The notes under the pieces were generated by a model. It was not told the origin of the DNA and made no database searches. It worked only from the letters and a program-made list of their open reading frames with translations. From the NCBI GenBank assembly GCA_022059125.1, contig JAEUWY010000023.1, positions 248,001 to 312,000 of the forward strand: a stretch of DNA of 64,000 nucleotides. The letters run 5' to 3'. Source of the DNA: Corynespora cassiicola. Taxonomy: Eukaryota; Ascomycota; Dothideomycetes; Pleosporales; Corynesporascaceae. Position 1 is the first letter of the stretch. Each line of letters begins with the position of its first letter. Shown piece after piece: positions 1-38,913 of the stretch. A program made the position numbers and the translations under genes.

Positions 1-1398
1 TGGCTCGTGACTGGCGCAAAGGACAATACGGCTCGTCTGTGGCGATTGGACCCAGAAAACAACTCGTTTACGTGCGCTTCGGTCCTTACAGGCCATGCCG
101 AGTCTCTCGGAGCGATTGCACTCCCCCATACAGCGCCACCGGAATCATCGGCTGCATACACGGACCCCCTTTCTCATCCACCAGCATACGTCGTGACTGG
201 CTCCCAGGATCGGACAGTCAAACGCTGGGACATTGGCAGGGAAGTCAAGCAGAAGCTCCGGGCAAAATACACGCGCAAAGCACACGACAAGGACATTAAT
301 GCCATTGACATTGATCCTTCGGGCAACCTTTTCGCCTCGGCATCGCAGGACCGCACGGTCAAAATCTATTCGGCATCAGAGGGCGAAGCAATTGGAGTGC
401 TGAGAGGCCACCGCCGCGGTGTGTGGACTGTAAAGTTTGCGCCAAAAGACTCGCAACCCCCCAACTCTGGGAACAAGGGTCTGATCGCGACGGGCAGCGG
501 AGACAAGACGGTCAAGATTTGGAGTCTGGCAGACTACAGCTGTCTGCTCACGCTTGAGGGCCATTCAAACAGCGTGCTGAAGCTTGCTTGGTTGCCCTAC
601 CGACCAGTCGATGCCCGAGACAAGCGTGGCCCTCAAGTCGCCTCGGCTGCTGGCGATGGTCTTGTCAAGATTTGGGATTCGGTGAGCGGTGAAGCAATGT
701 CGACTTTGGACAATCACACAGACCGAGTGTGGGCGCTGACTTCGCACCCGACGACGGGTGCTCTGATCTCGGGCGGTGGTGACAGCGTCATTACCTTCTG
801 GAAGGACACCACCAACGCAACTCTCGAGGCTGCTACCTCAGCCGAGACGGAGCGCGTGGAGCTCGATCAGAAACTGCAGAATTACGCATATTCGGGCAAC
901 TATCGTGAAGCCATCACGCTGGCCTTGCAGATGGACCAGCCTGGTCGACTCTTCACATTGTTCAAGTCGGTCGTCGAGACTGATACGCCAGATGAGGATA
1001 GCATGTCGGGCCTGATGGCTGTTGACGAGGTCCTTGCCAACCTGGCCGATGAGCAGCTTTACAAGCTGCTGCTTCGCCTGCGAGACTGGAATACCAACGT
1101 TCGATCTGCTCCCGTTGCGCAAAAGATTCTCTGGACGGTCGTGAAGTCGTATCCGGCAGCACGGTTGTCCAGCCTGAGACCTGCTGGCAAGGTGGGGGCC
1201 AAGGGCAGCTTGAAGGACATTTTGGACGCCATCAAGGCGTACTCGGAGAGGCACTATAAGCGCGTCGAGGAGCTGATTGATGAGAGTTATCTCCTGGACT
1301 TCACGCTCAGAGAGATGGATGAGGTTGGCGATGTGAGGGCCATCACCAACGGGACGTCGAAGTTGGGGGTGAAGGGCGACGTCGTCATGGCAGAGTAG
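1..1398 (+). CDS. UTP13: UTP13, small-subunit processome WD40 protein (3' part)
   Basis: The reading frame is open from base 1, so the 5' part of the gene lies outside the window; about 465 residues are present. The N-terminal half holds WD40 repeats with recurring blades such as SGGGDSVITFW, ASQDRTVKIY and GSGDKTVKIWS. The last ~180 residues form the helical Utp13 C-terminal domain, with a recognisable stretch around YAYSGNYREAITLALQMDQP and LADEQLYKLLLRLRDWN. In yeast the protein belongs to the UtpB subcomplex of the U3 snoRNP processome and acts in the nucleolus on 18S pre-rRNA. No intron is visible in the part shown. The family call is firm; only the N-terminus is unknown. Confidence 0.93.
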   Translation, partial: WLVTGAKDNTARLWRLDPENNSFTCASVLTGHAESLGAIALPHTAPPESSAAYTDPLSHPPAYVVTGSQDRTVKRWDIGREVKQKLRAKYTRKAHDKDINAIDIDPSGNLFASASQDRTVKIYSASEGEAIGVLRGHRRGVWTVKFAPKDSQPPNSGNKGLIATGSGDKTVKIWSLADYSCLLTLEGHSNSVLKLAWLPYRPVDARDKRGPQVASAAGDGLVKIWDSVSGEAMSTLDNHTDRVWALTSHPTTGALISGGGDSVITFWKDTTNATLEAATSAETERVELDQKLQNYAYSGNYREAITLALQMDQPGRLFTLFKSVVETDTPDEDSMSGLMAVDEVLANLADEQLYKLLLRLRDWNTNVRSAPVAQKILWTVVKSYPAARLSSLRPAGKVGAKGSLKDILDAIKAYSERHYKRVEELIDESYLLDFTLREMDEVGDVRAITNGTSKLGVKGDVVMAE

Positions 1399-2014
1399 GG
1401 TTAGAATCGCATATACCCGTTACCCGTTTTTGATAGCATTTAAAATTTTGGCGAAATCAATCAGTGTCGATAAGGCCAATGGCGTCGGTGCGGTGATCAA
1501 TGCGAGATGGTAGTGACTCTGTCGCGGGCCGTCTCGCTTCGTAGGGGGTCGTGGCACTCGCGGACTCGGTTATCGGACGGTGCGCCAAGACATGGTGCAT
1601 TCATGCTGTAAGGCTGCACGCCCGGTACACTTTACATCATAACGCTCCTAGACCGGCGATCCGGCATGGTCAATTGGAACACCTCGCTCCGTCGTCACCT
1701 TGGGCCAGCGCGCGGGACGAAGGGGCCAGGCGTGATTTAACGAGCAGAGAGCGCCACGCGTATCGCCAGCCACGCGAACTCTCACCTTCCGTAAAGAGGT
1801 TACTGCCCAGAGGCCGACCTTGGGCTCGCCTTTGCCATCGCCGGGACTGCCTCGATAAGCAGACCCCCCAGCCCAGCTCTTCCAAAATCCCCAAAATTCC
1901 CGGAGCTTGCCCACACGCGACACCGCAGCCGACCCGACCGCTCCCACACCCACAACTTCCTGTCGACCCTCCGTTCCATCACCACCAGCCTGCCTGCCAT
2001 CTCGCGCCTGCACC
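1399..2014. other. Intergenic, UTP13 terminator region and SHR3 promoter
   Basis: Holds the 3' flank of UTP13 (AT-rich just after the stop) and, further right, a C-rich pyrimidine tract leading to the SHR3 start, common in fungal promoters and leaders. Long frames on both strands here are low-complexity (Pro/Arg/Ser) and look like composition artefacts. I see no gene. Confidence 0.6.
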
Positions 2015-2770
2015 ATGTCCAACGCAAACTCGTTCGGCGCATTCCTCATCATCGGCCGTACGCCGCCCCCTTCCCTCCTCCTGCTGTTCCTCCCCGCAAC
2101 CCCATGCAGACCCTGAAATTGCTTATCCCAACGTCCCGCACCCACCCACGCCCCATCCCTCCCCCAAAAACAGCGGTTACACCCCAAACCAGCACAGCTA
2201 ACCCATTCTCCCCTGCGCACAGCAACATGCTTCTTCCTGGGCATCCTCTTCGCGTCGTTCCCGTACGACTACAACGTGCTCTGGACCACCCCCGCCGATA
2301 AGGAGCTCTACTTCAATGTCCTCGAAGACCACATCAAATTCCTCTACGCCTCCCCGCCCATCATATCGCGCATCCTGCACATCGTCATCGGCACCGGCAT
2401 GCTCGGCTTCCTGGTGAAGCTGTACGGCGGCGGCGAGGCAAACATGCTGTTCGACGGCGCGTCGCTCGTGCTCTACGTCGCCGGCATCATCGTCTACATC
2501 ACCAACATCGTCAAGGGCTTCCGCGTCGTCACGGCGGGTATCTATGGCGCCGCGGAGCACCTCGAGGAGGGTGCGCCGGACGATTACATCTCGAGGGAGG
2601 ATACGTTGAGGGTTTTTGCCGCGAGTAATACCATCTTGGCCCTGGTTTTGGTGGGGGTTTTGGTGTTGCAGGCGGGGCAGTGGTATGCGCTCAGGAAGGA
2701 GGAGGCTGAGATTGCCGAGATGGATAAGAAGGCTGGGGAGAAGAAGACGGCGGGTAAGAAGAAGCAGTAG
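2015..2770 (+). CDS. SHR3: SHR3-type ER packaging chaperone for amino-acid permeases
   Basis: Two exons, 2015-2057 and 2223-2770, with a 165-bp intron (GTACGC donor, CTAAC branch site, CACAG acceptor). The joined protein is 196 residues. Exon 1 gives MSNANSFGAFLIIG and exon 2 continues with FFLGILFASFPYDYNVLW, which is how Shr3 proteins open. Four membrane segments follow, then a lysine-rich cytosolic tail ending KKTAGKKKQ, suited to ER retention or COPII contact. In yeast Shr3 is an ER membrane chaperone that lets amino-acid permeases fold and enter COPII vesicles. Length and topology fit the family. The first exon is too short to stand out and would be lost if the gene were started at 2276. 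Confidence 0.88.
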
Positions 2771-3322
2771 AGAGGGGGGAGATTTGGACACGTTGCGTGT
2801 GAGGTGAGGGAGCGCGTTCTTGCCAATATCGGTCTCTTGGTGGCATCGCGCCGCTGAAGATGCGTGGCATGGTAAATTCTGTTTCTTCTTCTAGCTTCTT
2901 CTTAGCAGTCTCATGTCTGTTTTTGGACGTTTATAATTGGGTTGGGGATGGGCTGGGCTGCATGTGTCCTCTTGCAGGATTGCATGCTCTGTAAGAGTTA
3001 TATACCTGGGTAAAAGGCTTGGGACGCCGAAAGGCGAATCGGTTCTTCGGCCGAGTGGAAAAGGGCTTGTAGATCATGACTCAGGAAATTGATGAATGAT
3101 GCTGCATTGAGAGGCGCCAATGATTGTTTGAGTGGTAGCGCTGGCTCTTTCCTTTCACTCTGCCTCGACGGACGTCACGTGATTAGCAAACGCGACCGTT
3201 CACCGTTTCTTGCCTGCCTTCCAAGGTGGTTTATCAACCGCCCACCACCAGATTCTTCCTCCCAAAACCTACCCCCTTGTAGAATCGCACAGTCTGTCAT
3301 CAAAACTACCAACGAGTTCAAA
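2771..3322. other. Intergenic, between SHR3 and the RRM-like gene
   Basis: 3' flank of SHR3, then the promoter and leader of the gene starting at 3323. A CCACCACCAGATTC-type pyrimidine/CA-rich leader lies just before the start. No gene recognised. Confidence 0.5.
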
Positions 3323-4158
3323 ATGGGCGGTCCTGCCGTCCAACGCAACCCTATTTCGGGTAAGACATCAAGTCTCCGCACCGTTCCTTGTGCGAGTCCG
3401 AAGGACAAACGGATGAATGTCAAAAGATGGCTAACCCTACGAATTACATACAGCCTACACATTCGACTCCACCCCCTCCAACACCACCCTCAGCAGCAAT
3501 GCCTCCACCCTGCTCCCCCTCTGGCCCGACGACGAAGCCGCCAAGCGCGAAATAACCGCCTTCCTCCAAGCCCTAGAAATCAGCAAGAAGGGCACCACCC
3601 CGATCAATCTGTTCCCCTCGTCATCCTCAGTGGACAGTCCCACCGAGCAGATCCCCCCGCCCTCTACCCCGACCGCGCCGCCGTCCCCCAAGCCCTCATC
3701 CAACGGCACGGTGACCCGCGTCATCAGACCGGAGAACTTTGCTCACCTCACCGCCTCGAGCGGGCACTACGGGGACAGTGAGTACGTCGAGGATATGAGG
3801 CGTCAGGATGCGCTTGAAGAGGAGCGACGGCTGCCGCGGCGCGTGGTGGTGGGCAATATCGCGGCCGGGGCGGAGGAGGAGGATGTTAGTGTGCTCTTTG
3901 ATAAGTTTTATTATCAGATGTGAGTTTTTTTTCTTTGTTCCGTGGAGCTAACGGGCGATGTTGCTGTTGGCGCGGAAGGTACTGATGTGTCTGTCCAGTC
4001 AAGAGATTCGCTTCGTTGGGGAGCGGCATCCGGTTCATGGGACGCGGACGGCGTATTTGGAGATGGTGTCGAGGGGGTGGGCGAAGAAGGCGGTGTTTCA
4101 TCGGGGGCAGATTTTTGGGCTCAGGGTTCATGTTAGGCTTGCGGTTGAGGAGGAGTAA
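3323..4158 (+). CDS. RRM-like domain protein of unknown role
   Basis: Three exons: 3323-3359, 3454-3919 and 3999-4158. All introns are GT-AG with CTAAC branch sites and consistent phase; the product is 220 residues. Residues ~20-60 hold an LLPLWPDDEAAKREITAFLQ segment, ~65-100 is a Ser/Pro-rich linker, and ~142-218 looks like an RNA-recognition motif. That domain shows an RNP2-like VVVGNI, a helix EDVSVLFDKFYY, a strand EIRFVGE, an RNP1-like RTAYLEMVS and a terminal strand LRVHVRLAV. I infer RNA binding; the aromatic residues of classical RNP1 are only partly present, so it could be a degenerate or protein-binding RRM. I do not recognise an orthologue. Confidence 0.7.
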
Positions 4159-4478
4159 CGGGGTTTGGGTGGGTTCAAGGGTCTCTCTATGCATGTCCTA
4201 GGTGGCAAGATGTCGATGTTCATTCTGGCATCAGGCGTGATTGTGGGGAGGGGAGGGTTGGGTATGAAGGACTTAACGGCATGTAGGATAGCTTTGGTTG
4301 CATTTATCTAAATCGTAGTTTTGGCAAGGTTCGCGTGGATAATGATGTTATCATATCACTAGTTGGCTCATGAATGGTACCTTCGTGGTACTCTCAGAAG
4401 GACGTTCGATGATTTGCAATCGCCTGGTTTTCTTTTGAGTCTAATAGTACAAGGATCATCTCATGAAATAAATATATC
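4159..4478. other. Convergent 3' intergenic spacer
   Basis: Lies between the stops of the RRM-like gene (plus) and the NLR (minus). AT content rises toward the NLR. No gene or repeat seen. Confidence 0.5.
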
Positions 4479-7400
4479 TTAACGCCAAAGAATATAGATA
4501 CGAGAGTCGTACGATTTGATGTCGTCGAAATTCTCCGCAGAAGGGTCGTGTTGCTTGAGCAACATCTCTGCTTTGCTGCGGAATTCTGCTGCCTCTTGCT
4601 TATTCTTTGGATTTGATTCATCATTTGAGAGAGCTTTTGAAAGCATGAAACAGCAACGAGCTTCAACAATGCGATTCCCACCTGAATACATGACCAAATA
4701 GTAAACCTCCCGGAAGTCACAACTAAAAGATGATCAGATATGTACATCGGTCTTCGAGATTTGACAAAACCTACATAGAGAGTTTGAATTTTCCCAGCTC
4801 GTAATTTAAACACCCTTGACGGTAAAAGAGAGCCGCCTTAAGTGATGTCGAGAGCATGGTGAACGAACGCGCTACCCTCAAGAGCGATTCAGCTTTCCCA
4901 AGATGCCCGTTCCGCAGGGAACGAAACCTTATGGCGGTAACCAACCGAGATCTTGGCGTCTTGTGATCCTCCTGAGCTTCTATCTCCTTGAGCCGAAGGG
5001 TCGCAAGGGCCAAATACCAGCTTTTTCGATCAGCAAATGAGCAAGTAGCGTTTCCCCAAGTACTCACCGAGTGTACAGACTATCGCCATCGGTTTCAATG
5101 CTCCATAGCTCTCTGGTGATCGAATTCCAGATATTCTGAAGGGCATGTGTTGTCTGTTTGGGCCGCGGCTGAGATCTTCCCAGCAATCTCGATTTTTCAA
5201 GAGCTTTCTCAATCAAATCATGAGCTTCATTTAAATGGCCTGCCCACATGTGTACAATGCCTATATCGAGCACAGTCTCAAAAATCTTTTTGTCATTTTC
5301 CAGATCTTTGTAGAAGTCCAAAGCCTTTTCATGTTCCTCGAGGGCCCGGTCAAAAAGGCTCATACTTGCCAGGGCGTTTGCAAAATTCCTGGAAGCCCAC
5401 CCATATTCTAGAGGCCAAACAGAATTCTGGCTGAAGAAGAACTGCCGTGATTGGTCCAACAAGGGAAGTCCTTTCGAGAATTTGCCTTCGCGAACGTACA
5501 TCTGACCTTCGCTCAAACTTAGTAAGGCTTGTCTAATTTTAGCATCTTGGTTTGTCGGAAGCAACTTATTGACTATGCGGTTAGTTTCGAGCAGCTCGTC
5601 GTATTTTTTGAAGTTGTTGCAATATTCGTAATACCTTTTTGCTATCAGCTGAGTTCAAAACAAAACAGAACATATTGTACCTTTGAGCCGAGTAGTTCAA
5701 TTCGAAATAACTTTCAGGTGGAGTGTATAGTGTATTTGCGCGTCTTTCTTCATGAAAATATCGTTGCAGAAAATCTACTTGTTTCATGATGTCGCGGAGA
5801 GACAATTTATCCAAGCTGAGATTTCTTTGAACTACCGTAGATGCGATGAGTTGTATCGCATTATTAAGACTTTGCTGTCTTGCTGGGGCGCTCATATTCG
5901 CCTTGAAGGTTGCCACTACTAAGCGATGCACTCCCACGGAACAGCCTTCTATTTTCCATTTCACAAGTGACAAGCTTATCAATTTTTCCAAAGCAGACTT
6001 GAACATACTACATAAATATTAATCAACCCAAGATGTACATATATAGGAATGATGTACTGACTCTGAATCAATCTGGAGAGCCTTCAGTACCATACTTCCC
6101 TCGATGGGAATGAGTATATCACCGGGGCCAAGAAAGCAAAGCATCCCCAAGATTATGAAGCTAATGGAATCGAGCAATTCATAAGAATTTGAGAAAGCTG
6201 TGCTCATTGTGTCTTGAATACTAGGTCTATCGTTTGGGTGTGTTTTTGTCGTGCCAGGTGCCTTGGCGAAAGCTTCGCTGAACTCTCTAAAAGTCAAGTG
6301 AGTCTCGTTGATGTATTTTGAGGCCTGAATGAGACTACGAGGATTATACTCTAGCTGTGACGATAATTTAAGCACAAGATACGGTTTCTCGCGCCTTCTG
6401 TAATCTTTGGGAAGATTGCGAAGGAGAAATTCGGCCGCTATATCATTTGGCCATGGCTTGATGATGAGTTCTCTGTGAAATTTTTGGGTTAACAGTCTTT
6501 CTTTTCTTGTTGTTATTAGGATTCGCCCATTGTGCGTTTCCTTCGGCCAGTATTCGAATATGACATTGTCATCATCAACGTTGTCAAAAACCACAAGCCA
6601 CGAAAGTTCTGTGTCCAAATATTAGTAAAACGATCGTAGCTACCTTGCAAAACTCACCAGTCTGGCCTAGCCAGCTCAATAAAAATGAAGAACTATCTTC
6701 TTTTTGGATACTTCCACGATAGGCAGTTTTGAGGTCGAGTTCTGATGCTATAACCGAGAAGCTCTGCTGTATCGATTGCCGACTCTCGCCACGCACCCAA
6801 AATATCACATTGAATTCCTGAGCCTGCAATTTTGCATACTCTAAAGCAGTGGCAGTTTTTCCGATTCCTCCCACCCCGGATAGAACAAGAGACTTGAACT
6901 TTGGATCCTCATCGCTGTAACTCAGAAGGTTCCCAATGTTGCGGAGTTCTTCCTCTCTGCCCCAGAACTTCCGGGCCGACAGGCTGAATGGAACAGCAAA
7001 ATATCGTCTAGCACGTATTTGTGACAGATTTCGTGCAGAATGTTGGTTCTGTAAGGGCGTCATAGCACCGTCAAGGCTAAGTATGTTCTCTACGGCTTCT
7101 ATTACAGAAGCATAGTTGTCTCGAACCACTTCTGCGCCTAGTCTCCTGCGAATTGCTTTCTCAATTTCTCTCCACTTCTGCCTTTCGATGTATGGGATCG
7201 ATGAAGCCGAATAAAATGTATAGTAAGAGGATAGATCATCTGCATTGCCTTCATGATCGCTAGTTTGGCTTTGATTAGACTGTTGACACTGTACCATGAT
7301 TTCTCTGATCAGGGCAGGATCAATCGACTTGTTCGAGGTGTGAATGGTATTAAGCTCCAAATGTAGGCTGAGCAATTTGGTCCTGATATAGATGATGTTA

Positions 7401-7842
7401 TCGTATATTCCTTGGGTTACGAACAGACGACGGTCGTCGGTACCCTTGTCGCTGATGTAGTTTCGAAGCGAGTCTTCCAAAGTTTCTACATCCGATAGTA
7501 TCGAAGCGTGCTTTCGTAGGGCCTCCTGCAACCCGGGATGATTGCGAGGGAGAATACCCTGCAACTTTCTTGCATAACCCTCCACATTACTGCTTGTCTC
7601 TTTGAGGTCATCGAGTCGCCCCACAAGTCTATCAGACACATCCAGTGATGTACTGCATATCGTTGGAAGGTGATCCGTGACGTGCTTTACTGCAGGCAGT
7701 GGATCTAATGTATTTATTAGCTAAAGTGGTCGAAATACAAGTAAAGCATGCAGTATGACTTACTGATGATGATGGTGAGATCCCTACCAACGGAGATGTC
7801 GCCGAAGGCTGCGCTAAGACCATCAGCTGCGACTTGGTCCAT
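4479..7842 (-). CDS. NLR: N-terminal amyloid-type motif, NB-ARC, TPR (PNT1-like)
   Basis: Seven exons join in phase: 7842-7764, 7704-6658, 6608-6062, 6007-5635, 5564-5068, 5020-4775 and 4722-4479, giving about 1010 residues. Exon 1 encodes residues 1-26, with the motif FGDISVGRDLTI at 13-24; it is easy to miss because a frame from 7823 overlaps it. Residues ~30-250 form a mostly helical region of unknown type. NB-ARC follows, with a P-loop GVGGIGKT at ~303-310, a Walker B WLVVFDNVDD and a VHRLV motif in the position of the MHRLV of related fungal NLRs. The C-terminal third is TPR-like and ends ..YDSRIYILWR, a typical ending of fungal NB-ARC/TPR proteins. Family role: ligand sensing by the repeats and nucleotide-driven oligomerisation, with the N-terminal motif templating an effector. 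The divergent neighbour carries the matching motif. The amyloid role is inferred. Confidence 0.85.
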
Positions 7843-8223
7843 CTGAGTACAGTTCAGTTCTATGAACCATCGGAGTAGCTTTACAGGAGGCACCCAAGAT
7901 TGTTATGGAGCTTTTTGTTCCGGGTGTGAGAGGAATGGAAGATAGTGTGAGAGTACTATGAATAAGATGAAAGGCTGGATCTTGGCGTCTACCCCGCTCT
8001 CGCTCCTTCGCGCGCTTAAGACGCTGTGGCCTTGTTTGGGATAATGTGTTTACTTCGCTCGACGACATTTACATATCGACGCCTAGACAAAACAACACCA
8101 TTTGAGTTTTACGCTCGGTGGCCAGCCTTTTCTCCGTCGCACTAGCAAAGCACACAACGATTGTACCTAACAACGGTGTTACGGGGCTGTTTGTTCAGCC
8201 TTGCTAGATAGTATACGGAGGCC
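7843..8223. promoter_or_regulatory. Divergent promoter shared by the NLR and hydrolase genes
   Basis: 381 bp separate the two start codons (7842 minus, 8224 plus), so both genes must be driven from this interval. A minus-strand frame at 7823-8068 covers part of it but is not needed by the NLR gene model. No clear operator was found. Confidence 0.6.
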
Positions 8224-9517
8224 ATGCCTCCGTGGACTAAGTTTTGGCATCGGAATGAGGCAATACTACCGCAGGTGGAAGATGCCGTTGTTTCAAACCA
8301 GAATCTCTTCAGCACAGAGGGAGAGTATGGATTAAAGACCATGTGGGATCCAGAGGGCGCTATTGTAGAGTAAGGCTGATCGTCTTTTCCAGAATGCGAA
8401 TGATTTCGTCAGAGCAATCTAAGCTCATGATCCCTACAGTATAGTGTTTGTCCATGGCCTGACTGGTAATCGTGACACTACGTGGACCTATAACGACTCG
8501 GTTTTATGGCCGAGGGACCTTCTTCCTAACGACATTCCCTACGCACGGATTCTTACTTTTGGCTACGACGCAGATGTTGCCCGGTTCTTCAGCATTACCA
8601 GCTCCAATACAATCCGCGATCATGGAAAATCGTTTGCCCAAGACCTGGCAATGTTCAGGGCACGCACAAAGACCGTCAGTATCGAATTTGGCCGAGGCGG
8701 AAAAATATACAATAACTGATCAAACCAGGGAGATCGTCCCGTTATATTCGCTGCGCACAGCCTCGGAGGCTTGGTGGTGGAACAGGCAATACTGATCGCC
8801 CGTGGATCATCCCAAGCTCACGTCAAGTCCCTACTCGACGCCACAGTCGCGATCGCTTTCATGGGAACACCGCATCTCGGATCTAAAAAGGCAGAATGGG
8901 GCAAACAGATTGCACGCTTTGCATCTCTGTTTAGGCGAGTCAATCGAAAAATCGTTGCCGTTCTCGAACCTGATTCAGAGATGCTGGCAAACCTGCAACA
9001 AGAATTCCATACACTTTTGGAAGATAGAAGGAAGAACCAATGGAAGGAAGTGAACATTTACTGTTTTTATGAATCAATAGATGTTGCAACCATAGGAAAG
9101 GTATGTGCAATACCATCAATCATATTAATTTCATGTCTAACAATGGGCCCGAAATAGATTGTTCCAGACCAATCCGCGATCCTCCCGCAATATCCAAATC
9201 AGAGCATACAAGCAGATCACTCTGGAATGACAAAATTCAAAAGTCGGACGGACCCTGGCTATGTTCAAGTCAGCGGGATACTGTGGTTGTGGGTACAAGA
9301 GATAGAAAATTCGAGACAGAGCACGGCTTCGCAACAACAGAGCCCACGTGAGTCCCAGCAAGACATGACTGACAACAGCCAAAGAGAAGAGATTGCGCAG
9401 CGGAACAGGATTGGTGCAGCCAGCCCCGCTGAGTCCTATAGAAGTTCCAGTTTCACGTTCAGCTCTGGAAACATCAGTGTCGGAAGGGATTTCAGTATCC
9501 GCCGTGGAGCACAATAG
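8224..9517 (+). CDS. SesB-like alpha/beta hydrolase with C-terminal amyloid-type motif (SBP-like)
   Basis: Four exons (8224-8369, 8440-8674, 8729-9100, 9158-9517) give 370 residues, all junctions in phase. The fold opens with DIVFVHGLTGNRDTTW (from residue 49), typical of SesB-like serine hydrolases found as effectors or NLR domains. The nucleophile elbow AHSLGG puts the catalytic serine at about 138; a likely catalytic histidine is H272 (ADHSGM). After ~residue 305 comes a polar Gln/Ser/Arg-rich linker, then the last ~20 residues hold FTFSSGNISVGRDFSI. This matches residues 13-24 of the divergent NLR. Known precedent: in Chaetomium globosum, SBP is a SesB-like lipase carrying the PP amyloid motif and activated by the NLR PNT1. 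Inferred role: a lipase-type cell-death or defence effector switched on by templated aggregation. Confidence 0.87.
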
Positions 9518-9905
9518 TCATCTCTAAACCAAGAACTATGAGAACCAGTTGCCGTGAAAACAATGAAATGGAAAAAAATATTTATCGGCTAATTAGATAT
9601 GAATGGAATTTCACATATGCATTTTCTAGAGCATTATCTGCCCTCACCACACAACTCGTTCGATCCAGACACAATCTGCAAAACTCAATAGATGAGCGAA
9701 AGACTGAACATACTAAATCCTCATTCGTGGGTATTTTGATGCCGAAGATGATGCTCCTCCCCATGCTTCAATTTCATATCATCGTACTGCCATGTCTGCG
9801 TTACATATTCCTCCCCTCCCCGCAATGACTCGTCGAAAACCAGGCTCCTTAAGCCCATGCATCGAAACCAAAAATGAGAGAATGTCACGATTCATAAATC
9901 AGAGT
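9518..9905. other. Convergent 3' spacer, hydrolase and NAS genes
   Basis: AT-rich region between two stop codons. A short frame at 9538-9828 has no recognisable domain. In particular I see no HeLo-like pore-forming gene here. Confidence 0.5.
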
Positions 9906-11134
9906 TTATCCTTTGACTTGGAGAACAATGACCGAATTCACCACCTTCGTCCAAGGATGAACCTCAGCGAGGATATCGTATCCGACATTCGCCAATTCCT
10001 GAGAAAGCTCCAAAATCTGTCAAAAATAAGCCTACACCCCAACAAACCCATTGTCGCAAAGGTTTTAGTTCCACTTACAGGATACAGCACACTCCTCAAC
10101 CCCTGCGCACTCCTCGCCACCACCAAAGTGCCCGGCTCCAGTTTCTTCGCAAGCGACGCGAGAATCCCCATCTTCGTCTGGGTATCCATACCCACCAGGG
10201 CCGCCAAAAATACCACCTGGAAGCCTTTCCAAGCCGTGCTTGTCGCTATACCCGCAATCGGGTCTATGCTGATCGAAGCATCCACGCTGACGTCTTCGCA
10301 CGAGAAGGACATGCGCGGGCCATATCCTAGCCGATGGGCCAGGCTCCGCGACGTTCGGAGTGCCTGCAGATCGCGATCCACGTTATGTACGATGGCTTCT
10401 GGGTAGCGATCTAGGACACAAAAAGAGGTCAAGGGCAAGGGTCCTGAGCCGATGAAGGCAATCTTGCAGGGGGAAGGGCGACAGTCGGGGCTGCAGACGG
10501 GCAAGAAGGCTTCCAGTGTGCAGCACTCTAAGCGCGAAAGGTCGATGTAGTTCTGGTGGTATGGAAAGGAGGAAAGCAGCTTTTGGGTATGGGAAGACGA
10601 TACTGTCCCCGGTCAGTGCACGGTCTTGGTCATAGTGCAGGAGAGGGGTGGCAAACCGAGCGGGGTGGATGCACTGATGATGCGCTGGGCCCAATACAGT
10701 TCCAACTGTCCTTCTGCAGTGGCGCAAAGTGGGCGTAGCTGAAGACATAGCGCTTCCACTCCTCTAATGCTAAGCACATAGGATGCAAAGTCTTCGCCTC
10801 GAGGTGTTATGCATAGATTCACTAGTCGTGTGAGCAGTGAATTGACTTGCTCTCCAGGCGCAAGACTTGGAAGACTGCTAAGTGTAGAGTGAATGTGTCT
10901 CAGTTCCTCAACAAGTTCGTGTGCGGCAGAAGTCATGGCAGTGGGGGTCGCAGGAGGGGAATCTTGCGTCATCTGCTGGCTGTGTGCCTTCAACTTCGAC
11001 TTCCCCACGTCGGCAAACGAAGCATATTTGTTGTCCATTTGGGAGCAGTAGTGATGTGATAAGTGTTCGTGAGGTTGTGATTGCATGGGTGAATGGGTTC
11101 CTGGAAGTGTGTGTCCACCGGAACTTGCAGACAT
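9906..11134 (-). CDS. Nicotianamine synthase
   Basis: Three exons: 11134-10657, 10602-10079 and 10016-9906, about 370 residues. The SAM-binding motif GSGPLPLTS lies at ~211-219 and is followed by AIVHNVDRD, both diagnostic of nicotianamine synthase. Upstream FPYHQNYIDLSRLE and the C-terminal DILAEVHPWTKVVNSVIVLQ also fit the family. The enzyme condenses three S-adenosylmethionine molecules into nicotianamine, a cytosolic Fe/Ni/Zn/Cu chelator; fungal members are patchily distributed. The donor of intron 1 is uncertain: GTTTGC (exon end 10657) and GTGCAT (exon end 10675) are both in phase and differ by six residues. The second intron has a clean GTAAGT donor. The first ~70 residues are low complexity; I chose the MSASSGG start over the in-frame ATG at 11194. 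Confidence 0.88.
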
Positions 11135-11610
11135 GGTGAAGAGATTTATAGGCCTGCAAGGGACGGGGATAGGTAGGCTGAAGTAAGAAAACAAAACCTC
11201 GTGACAAACTCTTCAAACTGTCAAATTCGACCGGAGGGTATAGCGGTAATAACTACTGCCTGGTTGGTTCGGCTTGACATGAGTACCTTGTTGGCCTGTG
11301 GGGGGTTAGTTCTTGCCGGCAACGGAAGCTATGCCCAGTGTGGTGGATTTCCCAAGGAGGGGGGTCAGGCAAAGGCAATAAGAGGGTGAGAATGTAGACA
11401 TTGAACATATTAGATCTAGTGTGAAGGGGCCAGGCTGGCGCTAGGCCCTATTCCCTGTCGGCATATCATTCGGCGAGCGGTCAATTCGATAACGTGCCGT
11501 TTGCAAATTCTCACCACATGCAGGCCACCCTGGCGTAGGTGCGGGTATCGCGCATTTCTCTCTGCTTGGCTGCCATGCTGCGTGGGAGTGCCTGTGGGGT
11601 ATTGCTGTAC
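11135..11610. other. Intergenic, NAS promoter and amidohydrolase 3' flank
   Basis: 476 bp between two minus-strand genes. No gene recognised. Confidence 0.5.
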
Positions 11611-13693
11611 TTAGGGCTTTGACCTCCACGGAGGATTGTCTGGACCAGCGCGTTTGTAGACCAGTTTGCCACCAACCCACGTCTCCCTGACTGTTGCTTT
11701 CCGCAAAGATTCCATATCCATCAACTCCAGTGGCTCGTCGAGCACTACCCAGTCGGCGTAAGCGCCCGCCTCGATAGCGCCGGCTTTGCCTTCGAGGAAG
11801 GCCGCGTAAGAGGGATTCACGGTGAAGCCTTCCAGAGCATCCTCAAAGGTGACGGTTTCTGAGGGGTACCAGCCCTCTGTACCACCTTCAGTATCCAGAC
11901 CGGTCCGAGGACTGCGCCGCGTCACAGCCGCATAGATCCCTTCGAAGACATTGGCTGGTTCGACAGGAAAGTCACTTCCAAGGACTGGATTCAACGGGAG
12001 AAGCGAACGCATGCGATAGGCCTCTTGTTCCGTACGCTTCTTGCCCAACCTGGTCTCCGCGTAATACATATCGGAAGTCGCGTGCGTCGGCTGGATCGAC
12101 GGAATGATACCAATCTCGGCCATTCTTTGCTGGTCGTCGGGGTGGATGATCTGCGCGTGCTCGATGCGGAAGCGGTGCTTCTTCTGACATTCATGCAGGG
12201 TCGAGTCTGGGCATAGCACCTTCAGCGCAGACTCGAAAGCATCGATGGCTAATCGATTGGCGAGGTCGCCTATCGCATGGATATTGACCTGGAATCCAGC
12301 TGACGCCCATTGGTGTGTTAACTGGGTCAGCGTGGTGGCATTGACCAGGAGAGACCCAGAAGATGTTTTTTTGTCACTGTAGGGCTCGATCATGGCACTG
12401 CCCCAACTTCCCAGCGCGCCATCTGTTCGCTGTAAGCATTATCCCTGCACGCATGGCAGCTGTACATACCTCCGAACAATTTCACGCTGTGCACGTGTAA
12501 CTTCCCGTTGGGCATGCTGATCTTGTTGGCATCCTTGGGACAGAAGGTATTTCTTGTCTCGCACTCAATCATGGCATTCACGCGAACGTTCCAGTCGTCG
12601 TCATTGGCAAGCTCTTGATAAAGCTGCAACTCGGATGGGAAAACGCCAGCATCGTGCATGCCCACGATTCCCAATTTGTTCAACTCCCACATGGCCTCTT
12701 TGATGAACTTTGTCTGACGCTGCCTGTTTGGTCGTGGATAGAACTTGGCGATAATATCCATGGCATTGTCGCAAAAGACGCCCTTGGCCGGAATTTCGCC
12801 GCCTGGAACATCAGGCAGGGGCGATGGTAAAAGGGACAGAACCTTGTCTGAAACCCAGATGCAGTGGACATCGATTCTATCGAGCATGACATATTGGTCT
12901 TTGAACGTGTCCCCAATTTCCAGGTCCGACTGATCGACGTTAGCTTCCAGCCTCAAGCAGCAGTGCGTTATTGGACGCAATTTTGCCAAGCATTCGCCAA
13001 TCGTATTGGGAGGAAAACAAAGCAGCACTGGTAGAATCGAAGTTTGGGATAACATACTGCCACGGGCCATCTCCCCTGGAAATGTGCCTGGTCCCAGCCA
13101 ATTCCCCGCAGCCACTGCTCACTTGTCCCAACCTCGGGGCGTTGAGTTTTGTACTGTACGAGTCTCTCCTGGACCTCTTCCATGGACTTGGATCCGAAGA
13201 GGTCCACCGAGTCTAGCAACTCTCCATACTGGAGAAGGTGGCCATGGCCATCCCAAAGACCAGGGACCACGTGGCCGGTGCGGTAGGCTTTGCTGAGCTC
13301 GAAGGACGTGTCGTCAATGAAGACGCGAGAGAACCTTCCGTTGGAAACACTGAAGCACTCGGCGTGTGGCAGCGCTGAGCTAAGGGTCCGGACACTAACG
13401 TAGCAGTGTGTAGTCGAAAAAAGATTACGGATGATCTTGAAAAATATGTTATCTGGAATGAGCTTGAGCAAGAGTGACAGGGCACTGGGGGCGCCAATTT
13501 GGTAGACGAGGGCGGCTAACAAAATGGGCAAAGAGGCCCAAAACAGAGTCGACACGGACGGCATCGTGCCCCAAGAATTGTCGTTTGCAATGGGCCGGGG
13601 ATCAGCGTTGGGAGTCAGAGGTTTTCTCTCTGGGCTGGCTTCCGTTGCAGGAGGCGTGCTTATCGATAGGGACAGCCGCGGTTCCCCGACCAA
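11611..13693 (-). CDS. Membrane-anchored YtcJ-type amidohydrolase (amidohydrolase 3)
   Basis: Exons 13693-13058, 12929-12470 and 12422-11611 give about 635 residues; introns have GTATGT donors and keep phase. A hydrophobic segment at residues ~49-76 precedes the catalytic domain, so the enzyme is probably a type II membrane protein or cleaved at a signal anchor. The metal-binding entry motif WDGHGHL is at ~148-153. Later family motifs are DRIDVHCIWVS, LFGDGALGSWGSAM (made only after the second intron is removed), NIHAIGDLAN and HAQIIHPDD. The C-terminus has the FTVNPSYAAFLEGKAGAIEAGAYADWVVLDEPL signature that closes the composite beta-sandwich of amidohydrolases. Substrate unknown; relatives hydrolyse N-acyl or exo-amide bonds. 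Confidence 0.9.
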
Positions 13694-14390
13694 TTAGGAA
13701 GGTAGGGAGTCGTGCGATAGCGCGCCAGTTGGACCCGGGCGTCACCGTCGCCATCGACACGGCGACTCTGCCCAATATTGCCTGCCATGTGTTCGTCCGT
13801 GAACAGACGGGCAGTGCGGGAATCAGAATGGCGCCTCAATAAACCCGGTCCCCTCGGCTCCCAGCGTGTGCCGACTCCTCTGACCCAAACCGCCGGCCCT
13901 ACCGCGACCCCGCCCCATGAAACCTCATGGCCCTATCCCGATGGATGGCTAGCTTGAAGCTTGTTACAGCTTTATGGCCTTGTCGGACCCTCATGCTGGG
14001 GCACCGACGGCCGTTGGCTCCAGGCGACGGCTTGTCCGGTCAAGGCAAAAGGCGGTGAGGGCCAATTGACAATGCCATCCCGACGACTGTGGGCTTTTCT
14101 GACAGCGCCGTGGACCAGTTCGAGCGATCCTTCACCACTTTTTAAACGCATCGCGTGCGCAAGCAAATGCATAAATGCCTTGGCCCGGATACGCATTGGC
14201 CCAGCCGTCGACATGCCAGCACGCAGAGGCTCGGCAATGAGCCGGGCTAGTGTGGGGGCCGACGTTAAATATCCCGCGCTTCCCCGGTCGAAAATGAGGA
14301 GGCTGAATAGAGCCTCACGACCGACTTTGCGGCGCGTCCTGTGTGTAGCGTGACACCAAACCCCCCACATCACGGGGCTGTAAGAGTCGT
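13694..14390. promoter_or_regulatory. Divergent promoter, amidohydrolase and CorA-like genes
   Basis: 697 bp between opposite starts. A TTAAATA element near 14265-14272 sits ~120 bp before the CorA-like start and could be a TATA-type site. Nothing else recognised. Confidence 0.45.
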
Positions 14391-16855
14391 ATGGCTACGA
14401 ATGATGTCGAGGTGCTCAAGAAGCAGCTAGAGACGCTTCAGCGGTCACACGAGACCCTGCTAAAAAGCTTGTCCTCGTCCAACGGGTCGTTCGGACCCTC
14501 CGAGATACCACTCCAGCGATCAACCACGGTGCGGGATGAACGCGTCAACGCCGTCTTTGCCGACACTTCCACTCTCTCCGACGACAGCGACGACGAGGAC
14601 GACTCGTTCTTTGTCCAGGGCGATCTACCCTCGCAGTCATTTGACCATGAACACTTGCGCGAGCACCTGAAGACTCATGACTGGAAAGAGCATGGCCGGG
14701 AAATTCTGGCCTCGATCGTTTCGAACCCTGCTCGAATCTCAAAACAGCCGCATCTATTCCACACGGGACCCGGGCCAGCCGAGGACAGGAGTCATTACTC
14801 ACATTTCCAGTATACCCCCCTCCCCAGATGCCGAGTTCCGTCCCCATTGCTGAACAAGCCAGGGTCTACGATGTCGGCGTCGATGGCAAGGCCGAACTGG
14901 TGGAGATGAGTGGAGCAGACAATAACATGTCCAAGGCAACCGAGATATGGCATTCCATCAGGGTATGCCTAGCCGATGCCAATTTTGACCGCGGGCTGAC
15001 CAGAGTCTTCCAGAATATCGGCGTGACCAAGAAGGAAGGGCAACAAACCGTCGGGCGTGTCACGTGAGTCCTCATCATGCCTCCAGGGCTCCCATCCGGG
15101 CAACCATGGGAACCGTACTGCCTCGACACGGCGTCGGCTGACAGTCATATCACAGCATTGCTCGCGAGCCGGCCCCGATACTGTTTGGTGCTCTCCATCT
15201 TACCATGCATAAGACTTTCGATATGGATGAGCTCTTTAAACACCTTGTTGAAGCAGAGGCGTCTTCAGTAGGTCATCAGGCAAAGAACTCTTCCTTCACT
15301 ATCGCTACTGACGTATTGCCGTAGGCGAGTATGCATCGAGCATTCGACGAGGATCCAAAACACCAAAAGACGTTCTTCTTCACATTCGAATACTACACCA
15401 TCATTGGCGAAGACTGCAAGCCTATGCAATGGCAACTTGCTGATAAACAAGACACAGGTCCAAGTGAGAGCCACGTACCCTTGACGAGATGCGGTGCGGT
15501 TGTGGCCTTGGCTCTGTATGATGACAAGCCCCGTCGGCTTCGGAATCGTTCCAGGCGAGCAAAGACCAAGTACGGATGGGTTCAAGACATTTGGTCGCCA
15601 TGGCAGGTTCTTGTCGTAGAATGCTTTCCGTGAGCAATGCGCAGGTTCATCTTTGTTTTAGATGCTGATTGTATACAGTGATTGGAGAGCCACGGCGGAC
15701 ACATACGAGACCGGACATCGTTACCTGAACGGACCAGAGGCTTTCCTCCACGCTCTCTTGACAGAGTATCGCGACGCTCGGCGACGCTACGAAGATATAT
15801 ATAAGCGCATCACAGAATTAATCACACCACCCCTAAGTTTTATATTTGACGCCGACTTGCGGGACGAGCGTCTTTTCGAGGACCGAAACTTTACCTGGAC
15901 ACGACGCTACTTTTACGCACATCAGACTCTGGGCAACGTCAACGACTCGATAAAATCCATGATTGACGCTTTCGAAGACACTTTCACAGACGAAGTGTGG
16001 GACGGAAAATCCAAGACGCTATGGCCGCTATTCGAAGAATCGCCACGGAATGATCACTGGCTGCGAAGACTCCGGGTCCTCCGCCTGCAATTCGAGCGCG
16101 AAATGAAGGAACTCCGTATCCTCCAACGCGAAAACAACGAACGCCGCCGCGAAATCGAATCGCTGCAGGAACACCTCTTCTCTGGCACCTCGATCCAAGA
16201 ATCGCGCAAATCCGTCGAACTGTCCGACATCACGGTGCAGCAGGGCCGTAACATCAAGCTCCTCACCATCGTCAACCTCTTCTTCATGCCCCTCACCTTC
16301 GTCACGTCCGTCTACGGCATGACCAACATGCCCGAGCACCCCTCGAGCTTCTGGCCCTTTGGCGTCACCCTCTTCGCAATCTGCATCCCCTTCTTCTCCC
16401 TCATCGGTTTCCTGTCCACAAACTTCGGCTACATGATGTGGGTCTCCAAAACCAAGCAACTGTACCGCTGGCTCCGCCCCAAGCCCAAGGAAAAGAAGAA
16501 CTCCCCCAGCAGCGAAGTCGAACCTGGCGTGCAGCCTGGCCAGGTGAACCGCACGATGTCCACCGAGGTGGGCATGCAGCTGCGCATGGGTCAACAGGCT
16601 CCCGTGGGCGGATCGGCGGCTCCTACGCGTCCTGGCACGCCCTCACAGCAGCAGCTCAATTTGCAGCGCCGCATGAGCGCTGTGGCGCGGCCTACACATC
16701 CGAATATCGGGCGCATGGTGGCGGCCATGGGGGAGGGGAAGCAGAGCAGTCTTGTGCGCATGGGGACGCTTCGGGGGAGTGTGGATGAGCTGCGGGAAAA
16801 GGATGGGGATGCGAGTACGGGGCGGGAGACGGTGATTGATGTGCATGAGCGGTAG
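14391..16855 (+). CDS. CorA-like divalent-cation channel domain protein
   Basis: Five exons: 14391-14809, 14863-15063, 15156-15267, 15325-15629 and 15679-16855. All are GT-AG and in phase, giving 737 residues. The N-terminus has a short coiled coil (VLKKQLETLQRSHETLL), then an acidic patch (DDSDDEDD). The middle ~300 residues are the fungal CorA-like cytosolic domain (VYDVGVDG, EPAPILFGALHLTMHKTFDMDEL, VLVVECFPDWRA). A long helix leads to two C-terminal membrane segments (about 540-558 and 573-592). Between them the YGMTNM signature (~558-563) replaces the bacterial GMN selectivity loop, as usual in fungal relatives. The cytosolic tail is rich in Pro, Gln and Arg. Probable Mg2+ or other divalent-cation conduction at the plasma membrane or an internal membrane; ion not provable here. 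Confidence 0.88.
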
Positions 16856-36603: not shown

Positions 36604-37699
36604 CTTTGCTAAGATACTCGAGGTGATGGTTGTGTAGTGATGTTGAATAGTAGGAAAAGAGGCCGATACAGCAGAGCGTTGGTAGTGTTGATGGGCGTGG
36701 GTAGGTTCCTCTTAAGTACGAGTTCTTCTCCACATTCCATCATCGCGCACCTTAGTTTTGTTCAAGCTTTTCTCCATCTCGCTTAAATCCACTGTAAGCA
36801 ATCCCCAAGCCAAACCTATGGCTGTGGGTTCGATTGTAGCTCTACACCCAAGGGGCCCGGTTTATTTCCGAAAGGAGTATAGTTCGCGGGTTTAATGCAC
36901 CTGGCTTACAGCAACTAGGATGGCCAGAGTTTGCCGAACGCTTTATCTCCATTTTTTCTACGTGACACTAAAAACAGAAGAGGATACGCGTCTGTGTGTG
37001 TCTAAAAGGTGTAGAGACAAACAAGGCCCGGGCGACCAGATCTTCGGGACGTGTATCACCGCCTTCGAGGGTGATGACAGTTATGCGCCTCGCCAGTATT
37101 CGTGTCGCAAAGAGAAGCATGACTCGCGAATTTTTTTACAGCGAGCATTCGTGAATCGTGCAATTCCAGTCCTTCAAGCTTCATGCACGATCTATCCGGC
37201 TGCTGTGCTCGTGCGGTTGCCCATGTGGATCCACAAACGTATCCCTTGGTGCAGTGCAACGGTTGCACTGCCTGGGGTATGAAGTGCGACGTCCGATTGC
37301 TGAACAATCATGGTTTATATATCATTCTATGTTGTGTCATATAGGAACCAATAAATTTCAGCTAGTTGGCGCGCGCCAGCTCCGGCCTGATTATTGGTAC
37401 CTTCCATGGTTGTGATAGTGACGATCACGTGACACATCGGCATTCGCACACCGGTGGGTGGTAGCTCCTCTATCTGCTTTAGCTTGGAGTGGACACAGAT
37501 GGCGTCTTAATTTTTAATTTTTTTTTTGCGATTTGAAGCTTCGAAAATACACATTATCTGTTAATAAGACTCCCCAAAACTGCTGTTGTACCCCGAAAGT
37601 TCAATGCGAGGCAAGGTAGCTCTGTTTTTCAAGGTGATCAACGTTATTTAACAAAAGTTTCAGTTTCTTTTACATTTCCTCTTGGTCATAAAATCTCCC
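36604..37699. other. Intergenic, lower GC
   Basis: 1.1 kb: cupin promoter on the left and 3' flank of the membrane-protein gene on the right. The 120-codon frame at 36920-37282 shows no domain. Nothing else seen. Confidence 0.45.
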
Positions 37700-38913
37700 T
37701 CATCTTGGAACTTCATAGTACCCAAGTTCAATATCATGTCTGACAGATATTATTCCATTTAGTTCTCTGGTGCTCTCCGTATCCCCGGGAGACCTTGCAT
37801 ATCCTGCCACGCTTCCCAGATTCCCAAATCTTTTTGAATTGCCAGTACTGATCTCTGTATTTGAGGAACTCCTAAATCGAAATACGGAAAATTTTGAAGA
37901 CAGCCACGATCCAATCCCTCCCTGGTCTGTGGAGAACAGAGGCCGTAGCATAGGTAGTGAGGCAGCCACAACAGAAACGTTCGGTTCCAACTGTGCCCAT
38001 ATATGCGCTTGATTGAGCTTATAGTATTCGTTCAGACTATTAGTATAGTCGTGTACGCTCTCGTAAGATAGGCGTAGGCGTGCAGCTCCGCAAACGCAAC
38101 ATAGTGCGCCGAGCCAAAAGACTAGCATGACGCCGATTTTGCGACGGAGAGGCATTTGAAGTTTTCGGATAACGAAAATCGGCATGATGAGGATTATGCA
38201 ATCGAAGGCGAGAGACATGGCCGCCACCGAGATTACATAGGCGGAGTCGTTAATCGCGTACGTTTCTTCAGGGTTCGTCCAAATGCCAGATACGGGATTG
38301 GTTTTGAATATCGATACCTGTTCCGAATTTATCTGGTTAGCGCTAGTGTAAACAGAAACAAAGGAAAGTGTATGTGTGACGTACGAGTAGGATTGCGATA
38401 GTCCACATTGTAATAATTATAATCATGGCCCAGGATACTTGCTTGAAAAGTGAAGCAGAGAATAATCGCGCATAGAAGAGTAAGATTGAGATCTTTACGA
38501 GGCCGAGTACGATGGAAAACGGCATCTCGTTGACCCAAAGAAACTAGCCCAGGTCAGTAGCTGACACACATTCCACAAAACTGGAGTCATGCCTTTGATA
38601 TGGTCAATGCTGCGTCTCGCTGAGGGATTATGGTCATGTTTATACCGACTATCGGGGCAAAGATCCAAATATCTATGGATATTGCCCAACATAATAGCTG
38701 TATCTCGATTAGTTCATCTTCAAGTGATACCGAGAAGAGAGAAGAACAGACCACACAAGCGATGATTGTCCAGTCCTCCCAGTATAAGCTCTGTCTTTGC
38801 CTATGTTTCACAAAAAGACGTAGAGCGACAACGAATGAGGCCAAACTCGGAAAGACCACAGATATCACGATTGATGCTGTCGTGAAGAGGGAGGTAGTCC
38901 TCTCTGTATCCAT
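37700..38913 (-). CDS. SAT4/rhodopsin-domain fungal integral membrane protein
   Basis: Proposed exons: 38913-38752, 38697-38593, 38543-38385 and 38332-37700, 352 residues. First ATG is at 38913 (the upstream in-frame GTG is not a start). Seven hydrophobic segments are expected; visible landmarks are EDWTIIACV, VNEMPFSIVLGLVKISILLFYARLF and SVAAMSLAFDCIILIMPIFVIRKLQMPLRRK, the fungal SAT4/'rhodopsin' domain pattern. Intron 1 (54 bp, GTCTGT...ATACAG, ACTAAT branch site) is in frame and removes a charged stretch. Intron 2 appears to be a GC-AG intron, AAG/GCATGA...GGCTAG, since the coding sense TISK/FLWVNE requires it. Role unknown; relatives are often seen in fungal pathogens and secondary-metabolite loci. 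Confidence 0.78.

Follow-up and report, generated by a model that had tools for sequence, protein, structure and literature searches.

The signalling pair of a NOD-like receptor (NLR) and a SesB-type hydrolase joined by an amyloid motif is an already established fungal arrangement: NLR/sesB pairs exist in NB-ARC and TPR forms, and their extensions are more alike within a cluster than between orthologues (PMC3321046). Few fungal motif families have been named together with paired effectors (HRAM, PP, sigma, PUASM and, provisionally, GDQN), and some are unnamed. Here we describe two divergent genes, an NLR and a SesB-like alpha/beta hydrolase, in a 64,000-nucleotide stretch of the Corynespora cassiicola genome (assembly GCA_022059125.1, contig JAEUWY010000023.1, positions 248,001 to 312,000, hereafter the window), whose products carry one short segment at opposite ends. 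We put at roughly 0.6 the probability that they form a two-gene module in which the NLR signals to its effector by amyloid templating, as in other fungal systems, with a motif from a GRD-type family of SesB tails. The comparison of motifs draws on portions of the text of PMC3321046, PMC5485727, PMC8086366, PMC12258605, PMC7889193, PMC7885112, PMC4518210, PMC10197012, PMC9815663 and PMC12261475, and what we say of published systems holds for those portions.

The window pair resembles the ses locus of Nectria haematococca (sesA, sesB, het-eN) in joining an NLR to a SesB-type hydrolase through a common N-/C-terminal motif and in having an intron in the 5' region of the NLR gene, as het-eN also does (PMC3321046); it differs in its motif, since sigma repeats an A/B unit three times and abounds in G, N/Q and aromatics, and the sigma signatures are absent from both window segments. 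In the CgPNT1/CgHELLP/CgSBP system of Chaetomium globosum, SBP, a putative lipase, is likewise controlled by an NLR that carries a matching motif (PMC7885112), but its PP motif is a Q-centred pseudopalindrome that is absent here. No counterpart of the sesA gene of the one locus or of the HELLP gene of the other, and no pore-forming partner, was found among the flanking open reading frames (ORFs) tested or convincing genome motif sites. HET-S/NWD2 shares the N-terminal motif on the NLR and the C-terminal motif on a neighbouring effector, but its effector is a HeLo protein with two 21-residue repeats. The PUASM pairs (PNP_UDP effector) and the GDQN pair (SesA effector) represent recent fungal motif families with adjacent NLR and effector genes (PMC9815663, PMC12261475), and the NLR-side segments of PUASM tend to ARD on their C-terminal side (PMC9815663), but the effector folds differ from ours and both signatures are missing from the window segments. 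Bacterial BASS1-10 follow the same gene logic, BASS2 being reported with an ARD 3-mer (PMC9815663), whereas our prokaryote genome scans gave no confirmed relative of the tail.

The gene pair and its shared segment

Residues 14-24 of the NLR (GDISVGRDLTI) and residues 355-365 of the hydrolase (GNISVGRDFSI) are identical at 8 of 11 positions, the remainder being D/N, L/F and T/S, and lie at opposite protein ends, as an earlier sequence-only reading of this DNA had reported. The same reading saw synonymous codon differences at many sites, which proves to mean half: 4 of the 8 codons for identical residues differ (G, S, V and G, with serine as TCC in one gene and AGT in the other) and 4 are the same. 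Because half of the shared-residue codons differ synonymously, the stretch is no fresh DNA copy. The best local alignment between NLR residues 1-60 and the last 60 residues of the hydrolase falls exactly at the motif with a score of 41, which was reached by 3 of 20,000 double shuffles of these termini, and 8 identities in an ungapped 11-mer were reached by none of 600 shuffles (best shuffle, 6). Across the whole genome (44.35 Mb, 23 contigs) the strict DNA pattern G[DN]IxVG[RS]D, with no mismatch, occurs at these two sites only. A pattern widened to V/A and D/N gives 7 sites, the two known and 5 others. Each of these five lies within an open frame of only 55-121 codons, and two (L022 and L021) sit 11 and 14 codons ahead of a stop; they show no further likeness to the tail, and none is near a SesB-like genome match. 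No third motif-bearing gene was found with the genome motif patterns or in six flanking ORFs, and neither the effector peptide nor the motif profile has a significant match in the PDB.

The features of the pair, with gene models assembled from GT-AG introns, are these (positions of the window):

7842-4479, minus strand: NLR gene, 1018 aa, 7 exons (7842-7764, 7704-6658, 6608-6062, 6007-5681, 5634-5068, 5020-4775, 4722-4479)
7771-7803, minus strand: NLR-side motif GDISVGRDLTI, residues 14-24, within exon 1 (spliced gene model)
7004-7702, minus strand: NLR residues 28-260, predicted helical (single-sequence AlphaFold2, AF2)
6493-6952, minus strand: NB-ARC match, residues 278-414, with P-loop GVGGIGKT from residue 303; includes intron 6609-6657 (Pfam; coordinates from exons)
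4479-5396, minus strand: TPR-type C-terminal region, weak TPR_12/TPR_10 matches from residue 747 on, two introns inside (Pfam)
7843-8223, no strand: intergenic region of 381 bp between both start codons, genes divergent
8224-9517, plus strand: hydrolase gene, 370 aa, SesB-like alpha/beta hydrolase, exons 8224-8369, 8440-8674, 8729-9100 and 9158-9517
9467-9499, plus strand: effector-side motif GNISVGRDFSI, residues 355-365, 5 residues from the C-terminus (spliced gene model)

The spliced models reproduce exactly the span 4479 to 9517 given by the sequence-only reading, and the NLR start it assumed at 7842 is the first ATG downstream of an in-frame stop; a deposited protein from C. cassiicola Philippines, P0121, is identical over residues 1-50, which span the junction of exons 1 and 2. 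Exon 1 of the NLR is 79 nt long and codes for little beyond the motif, and the six introns, all GT-AG, measure 46-59 nt each. A promoter in the intergenic region may be common to both genes. Both proteins have their nearest relatives in C. cassiicola Philippines (P0001, hydrolase; P0121, NLR), known as separate proteins.

The effector side qualifies as a SesB-like hydrolase, with a DUF676/alpha-beta hydrolase fold and a Ser-acid-His arrangement. Pfam matches are DUF676 (E 6.3e-7) and Abhydrolase_6 (E 1.5e-6), and the putative catalytic triad is Ser138, Glu242 and His272, the acid residue being assigned from conservation; in the alignment of 120 homologues Glu242 never varies, and Ser138 and His272 are each conserved at 90% or more. 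The protein is 94% identical over 370 aa to P0001, for which AF2 predicts an alpha/beta hydrolase with good confidence (mean pLDDT 82.7); confidence is low only at the C-terminus, where the last three ten-residue blocks (residues 341-370) have pLDDT 45-55. Foldseek against the PDB returned thioesterases, esterases and lipases, all alpha/beta hydrolases, with a best E of 2.7e-9 and yet a TM-score to the query of only 0.38.

GRD-type tails in SesB-like hydrolases

The hydrolase has 774 homologues in our search, and all tail and alignment counts cover the best 120 of these 774, among which the names include sesB-type for P0080 and P0096 and SERAC1 for several. A recurrent C-terminal tail of these hydrolases has the consensus SGGGxxFxGNxxAGRDF[TS] and a family composition of G, N and aromatic residues. 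By regular expression (regex) this GRD-type tail is present in 26 of the 120, with bearers in Cucurbitaria (P0002, C. berberidis), Lophium (P0003, L. mytilinum), Paraphoma, Alternaria (P0027, A. alternata), Sporormia, Penicillium (P0013, P. robsamsonii), Candelaria and others; a tail profile adds P0020 and P0040, both departing from GRD. A quick tree was built from 119 catalytic domains, those of the window protein and of the 118 homologues that cover at least 200 of 261 columns, the fragments P0081 and P0084 being omitted. On it the GRD label is clustered, with 11 changes against a shuffled mean of 23.0 and 0 of 500 shuffles as low, and 23 of 25 GRD bearers fall in a 41-row clade (SH-aLRT 93) that contains the window hydrolase. 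Because those 23 share its clade, the simplest view is that the window tail has drifted from a GRD tail ancestral there. Its GN..GRDF core, position and descent fit the GRD type, with the SGGG part lost, and the environmental homologue P0084 (GNISAGRDFSY), which matches it at 9 of 11 positions, bridges the gap to the AGRD tails.

The N-terminus of the NLR can be set against the same tails. Residues 1-60 align ungapped over 20-22 residues with the tails of P0008 (score 41), P0003 (39) and P0084 (39); against the 25 GRD tails outside Corynespora they score 30.8 on average, a value that 0 of 2000 shuffles reach, and 41 at best (7 of 2000), compared with a mean of 19.6 and a best of 35 for the 94 other tails. 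These alignments strengthen the GRD family reading a little. On the 11-residue core the NLR shares 8 residues with its neighbour, 7 with the C. cassiicola Philippines hydrolase and at most 6 with the other 25 GRD tails, and V replaces the A of AGRD in both Corynespora hydrolases and the NLR, and in 0 of those 25. Changes between the window and Philippines hydrolases number 9 in residues 1-310, 10 in the 40 residues of the linker and 1 in the 15 of the motif (D to N); such a nearly fixed motif beside a changing linker is what one would expect, in this one lineage, of a pair held at the protein level.

Several results weigh against a common GRD motif in the two proteins. Over the whole proteins the best local alignment lies elsewhere (44), 296 of 1500 shuffles reaching 44 and 548 of 1500 reaching 41, and the significance of the motif therefore hangs on confining the test to the two termini, a confinement that NLR/effector amyloid-signalling systems would themselves predict. 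One of the 22 first-60 stretches from other NLR-search matches (P0134) scores 39 with the hydrolase tail, GRD cores occur also in unrelated proteins (for example NVNVGRDFNV in a proline-tRNA ligase, E 3.7), and the shared segment is poor in N/Q. On the tree, from which both fragments are absent, the smallest starred clade around the window hydrolase holds only itself and P0001, and the Philippines hydrolase has GRN, not GRD. A profile of 23 AGRD tails gives the window tail only 3.6 bits, where the best of 4000 shuffled proteins has 6.6, and detects neither the NLR segment nor the Philippines hydrolase. The 25 tails are mutually related, so that the shuffle test of their mean score does not amount to 25 independent tests. 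In free local alignment the neighbouring hydrolase and the P0008 tail tie for the NLR at 41, and the hydrolase core is nearer P0084 (9/11) than the NLR (8/11); for these reasons the statement that the best match is the neighbour is true only when it is the NLR that is compared, and over the 11-residue core. One of our NLR protein searches gave only P0121 and the other, in which the 7996 candidates sharing most words were scored, 22 further proteins without such an N-terminus; because no NLR partner of the GRD-tail hydrolases of other genera was retrieved, co-evolution is seen in one lineage only.

The failure of the AGRD profile on the NLR segment and the P0134 score of 39 against 41 are also what would be expected if the likeness between unrelated termini were a matter of chance or convergence and the hydrolase tail had another partner. 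We regard this as very improbable, given the 3 in 20,000 shuffles for the pair, the 0 in 2000 for the mean over 25 GRD tails, the two genome sites, the adjacency of the genes and the V-for-A change common to both partners.

Other recurrent tails were observed in the 120 homologues by regex, namely FNGPISGR.VIPGTQ.TGGT.NFNF in 24, GGK...G types in 9 and GDQN in 4 (P0040, P0055, P0097 and P0101), and these are further candidates for signalling motifs. In prokaryotes, 0 of 4 pattern matches from the genome scan for tail relatives were confirmed. The DNA pattern gave at least 117 stretches there, and none of the 80 loci examined was tail-like by eye, their neighbours not being searched for NLRs; a stop codon is close to 20 of the 80, falling within the site itself in two of them, and a start codon is close to 4.

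Described motif families compared

The sequence-only reading had taken the locus for a PNT1/SBP-like pair, and this stands for the architecture, an NLR with an N-terminal motif beside a SesB/SBP-like hydrolase with a matching C-terminal one, and fails for the motif. The PP core is G-phi-Q-phi-G (PMC7885112) and its pseudopalindrome NxGxQxGxN (PMC9815663); both are absent from the two segments, whose spacing is G-x-I-S-V-G, and neither segment has a match to Pfam Ses_B (PF17046), which is the PP model and has been called 'misnamed' (PMC12261475). A search of the genome itself with Ses_B was empty, though its 14 controls were silent too. We therefore weighed whether the pair could be a true PP/RHIM-type (PNT1/SBP) pair with a decayed core: the shared architecture and an I-S-V-G reminiscent of the core of RHIM, (I,V)-Q-(I,V)-G, speak for it, but the missing PP core, pseudopalindrome and Ses_B match, the 0 of 120 tails with PP patterns and the AGRD-type tail of the clade leave it scarcely credible.

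Patterns for sigma and PUASM, like those for PP, were found in 0 of the 120 homologous tails by regex. A diverged sigma-family motif, one that keeps the A + B layout known from the ses locus but has GRD where sigma has GTQN, has in its favour that sigma is the motif of the original sesB and that its layout GxGxQFNxx + GGTQNINT (PMC3321046) is loosely echoed by the tail of P0007, SGGGAVFQGTQRAGRDINT. It is nevertheless a distinctly unlikely origin, since the A and B patterns (GxGxQF, GGTQN) are absent from both segments as well as from the 120 tails, the motif stands in single copy and not three-fold, and NACHT_sigma (PF17106) has no match in the two window proteins, in ten homologues, or among the 25 displayed of the 63 Pfam families for the 120 homologues, where a lone sigma or PP match is possible. 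The search of the genome itself with NACHT_sigma was empty, its controls being silent too.

HRAM has 21 residues, hydrophobic at 5, 8, 10, 16 and 18, with R/K preferred at 15, G at 19, T occasionally seen at 10, and usually two effector repeats (PMC4518210). At positions 5, 8, 10, 15, 16, 18 and 19 the NLR has A, G, S, D, I, V and G and the hydrolase R, S, T, N, I, V and G, so that only 16, 18 and 19 fit clearly; the segment is in single copy, with no Pfam match. The PUASM pattern FxGxGxQxxGxGxF is absent from both segments, as is the GDQN core, the part tested of NxxxGxQYxxxGxGDQNxVSxxxxQxN. The shared tag thus appears to fit none of the described families that could be tested, and it looks like a further family or subfamily, distinct by these tests from PP/RHIM, sigma, HRAM, PUASM and GDQN. 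In the text of the fungal amyloid-signalling papers, as apart from their logos and supplements, we found no description of the tail, and the string AGRD occurs in none of those listed; an unlabelled equivalent may have been described.

A short segment with little Q/N that falls outside the amyloid families tested would equally suit a functional pair whose segment is a non-amyloid docking motif, homotypic or heterotypic, acting by short beta-strand pairing or as a peptide bound by a third protein, and the low-confidence tail prediction is as expected of a flexible docking peptide. We consider this unlikely, though it deserves more weight than descent from sigma: an NLR N-terminus and an effector C-terminus encoded by adjacent genes is the placement of validated amyloid motifs, and the G/N/aromatic make-up of the tail family is like that of fungal motifs (PMC3321046).

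The receptor, its surroundings and proposed signalling

The NLR has a short N-terminal motif and no annotated effector domain, a stretch of predicted helix separates the motif from NB-ARC, and the adjacent product ends in the same motif, which is the general kind of arrangement found in these systems. By analogy with them, the two proteins are probably a signalling pair with a homotypic motif. NB-ARC is matched at E 7.5e-8 and the TPR matches are under curated cut-offs, with a further TPR_2 match in P0121 (residues 924-953). Residues 28-260, considered as a possible HeLo- or Goodbye-like second effector, match no Pfam family above cut-off and are all-helical in single-sequence AF2 with a mean pLDDT of only 49.6.

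Compared with P0121, NLR residues 1-280 are 96% identical, and divergence rises in a step, from 17 substitutions and 0 gaps in residues 1-350 to 189 substitutions and 19 gap columns in residues 351-1018 (about 6730-4479, minus strand). The step fits a diversified or exchanged sensing half beside a kept signalling half, possibly in an allorecognition receptor; it could alternatively come from recombination with another allele.

The genome contains 30 matches to the NLR, and away from its own locus they start at residue 227 or later. Some of the other NLR genes stand head to head in near-perfect inverted repeats with arms of about 3.1-3.5 kb, 96.6-99.9% identical. One such element is present at three places at 97-99% identity, L033 (G000:C3:28300-38200), L034 (C22:30700-39700) and L035 (C2:4783700-4792700), and a second family at L036 (C1:330700-340600); a C6 pair at 2.753/2.758 Mb is known from matches alone. 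In L033 each arm has a 326-aa frame and then a longer one, which in the plus arm match PNP_UDP_1 and then NB-ARC/TPR in Pfam, and the NB-ARC/TPR frame contains 123-bp (41-aa) repeats about 90% or more identical. The element has the appearance of a palindromic NLR pair that has been copied and may be mobile.

Within the window the module coincides with a low-GC island, 43-50% over 4001-10000 against 53-58% in the kilobases of 1-4000 and 10001-15000; a second dip, 42-46% at 37001-41000, contains short ORFs. The flanking genes are housekeeping genes, UTP13 and SHR3 on one side and nicotianamine synthase, amidohydrolase and CorA on the other, the nicotianamine synthase-like gene (9938-11134, minus strand; Pfam NAS at E 3.1e-16 and 1e-13 in two ORFs) adjoining the module.

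In the mechanism that we propose for the pair as an amyloid-templating module, the TPR half of the NLR would sense a ligand and the NB-ARC ATPase, as in its family, would oligomerise, so that the N-terminal GRD-type motifs of several subunits gather and adopt a cross-beta fold. By analogy with NLR/sesB pairs (PMC3321046), this fold would template the corresponding motif in the hydrolase's flexible C-terminal tail, and templating would cluster and activate the enzyme, which as a lipase or esterase may then act on the cell's own lipids and arrest or kill the compartment. The sequence-only reading went further in calling the locus a complete cell-death module. That description is not borne out: no pore-forming or third motif-bearing partner was found among the flanking ORFs or genome motif sites, whereas the C. 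globosum PP locus also has the HeLo-like killer HELLP, and SesB has been connected with altered growth in a proposed model only (PMC3321046), not as a killer. Because no pore-forming partner or further convincing motif site was found, the hydrolase would be the only executor known here.

We would give about even odds to a broader proposal, in which GRD would be a widespread family of fungal amyloid-signalling motifs not yet described, used mainly by SesB-type hydrolases in Dothideomycetes, Eurotiomycetes and lichen fungi, each controlled by an adjacent NLR that bears the cognate N-terminal motif; in Corynespora the motif would have drifted in step (A to V) in both partners while the sensor half diversified fast as an allorecognition receptor. 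If this is true, a further family, here with a lipase-type effector, would extend the range of sequences known for functional amyloids and would account for SesB pairs missed by profile searches. With only 11 shared residues, the Corynespora proteins would then also offer a short natural pair for testing the minimum sequence needed for specific templating from an NLR to its effector.

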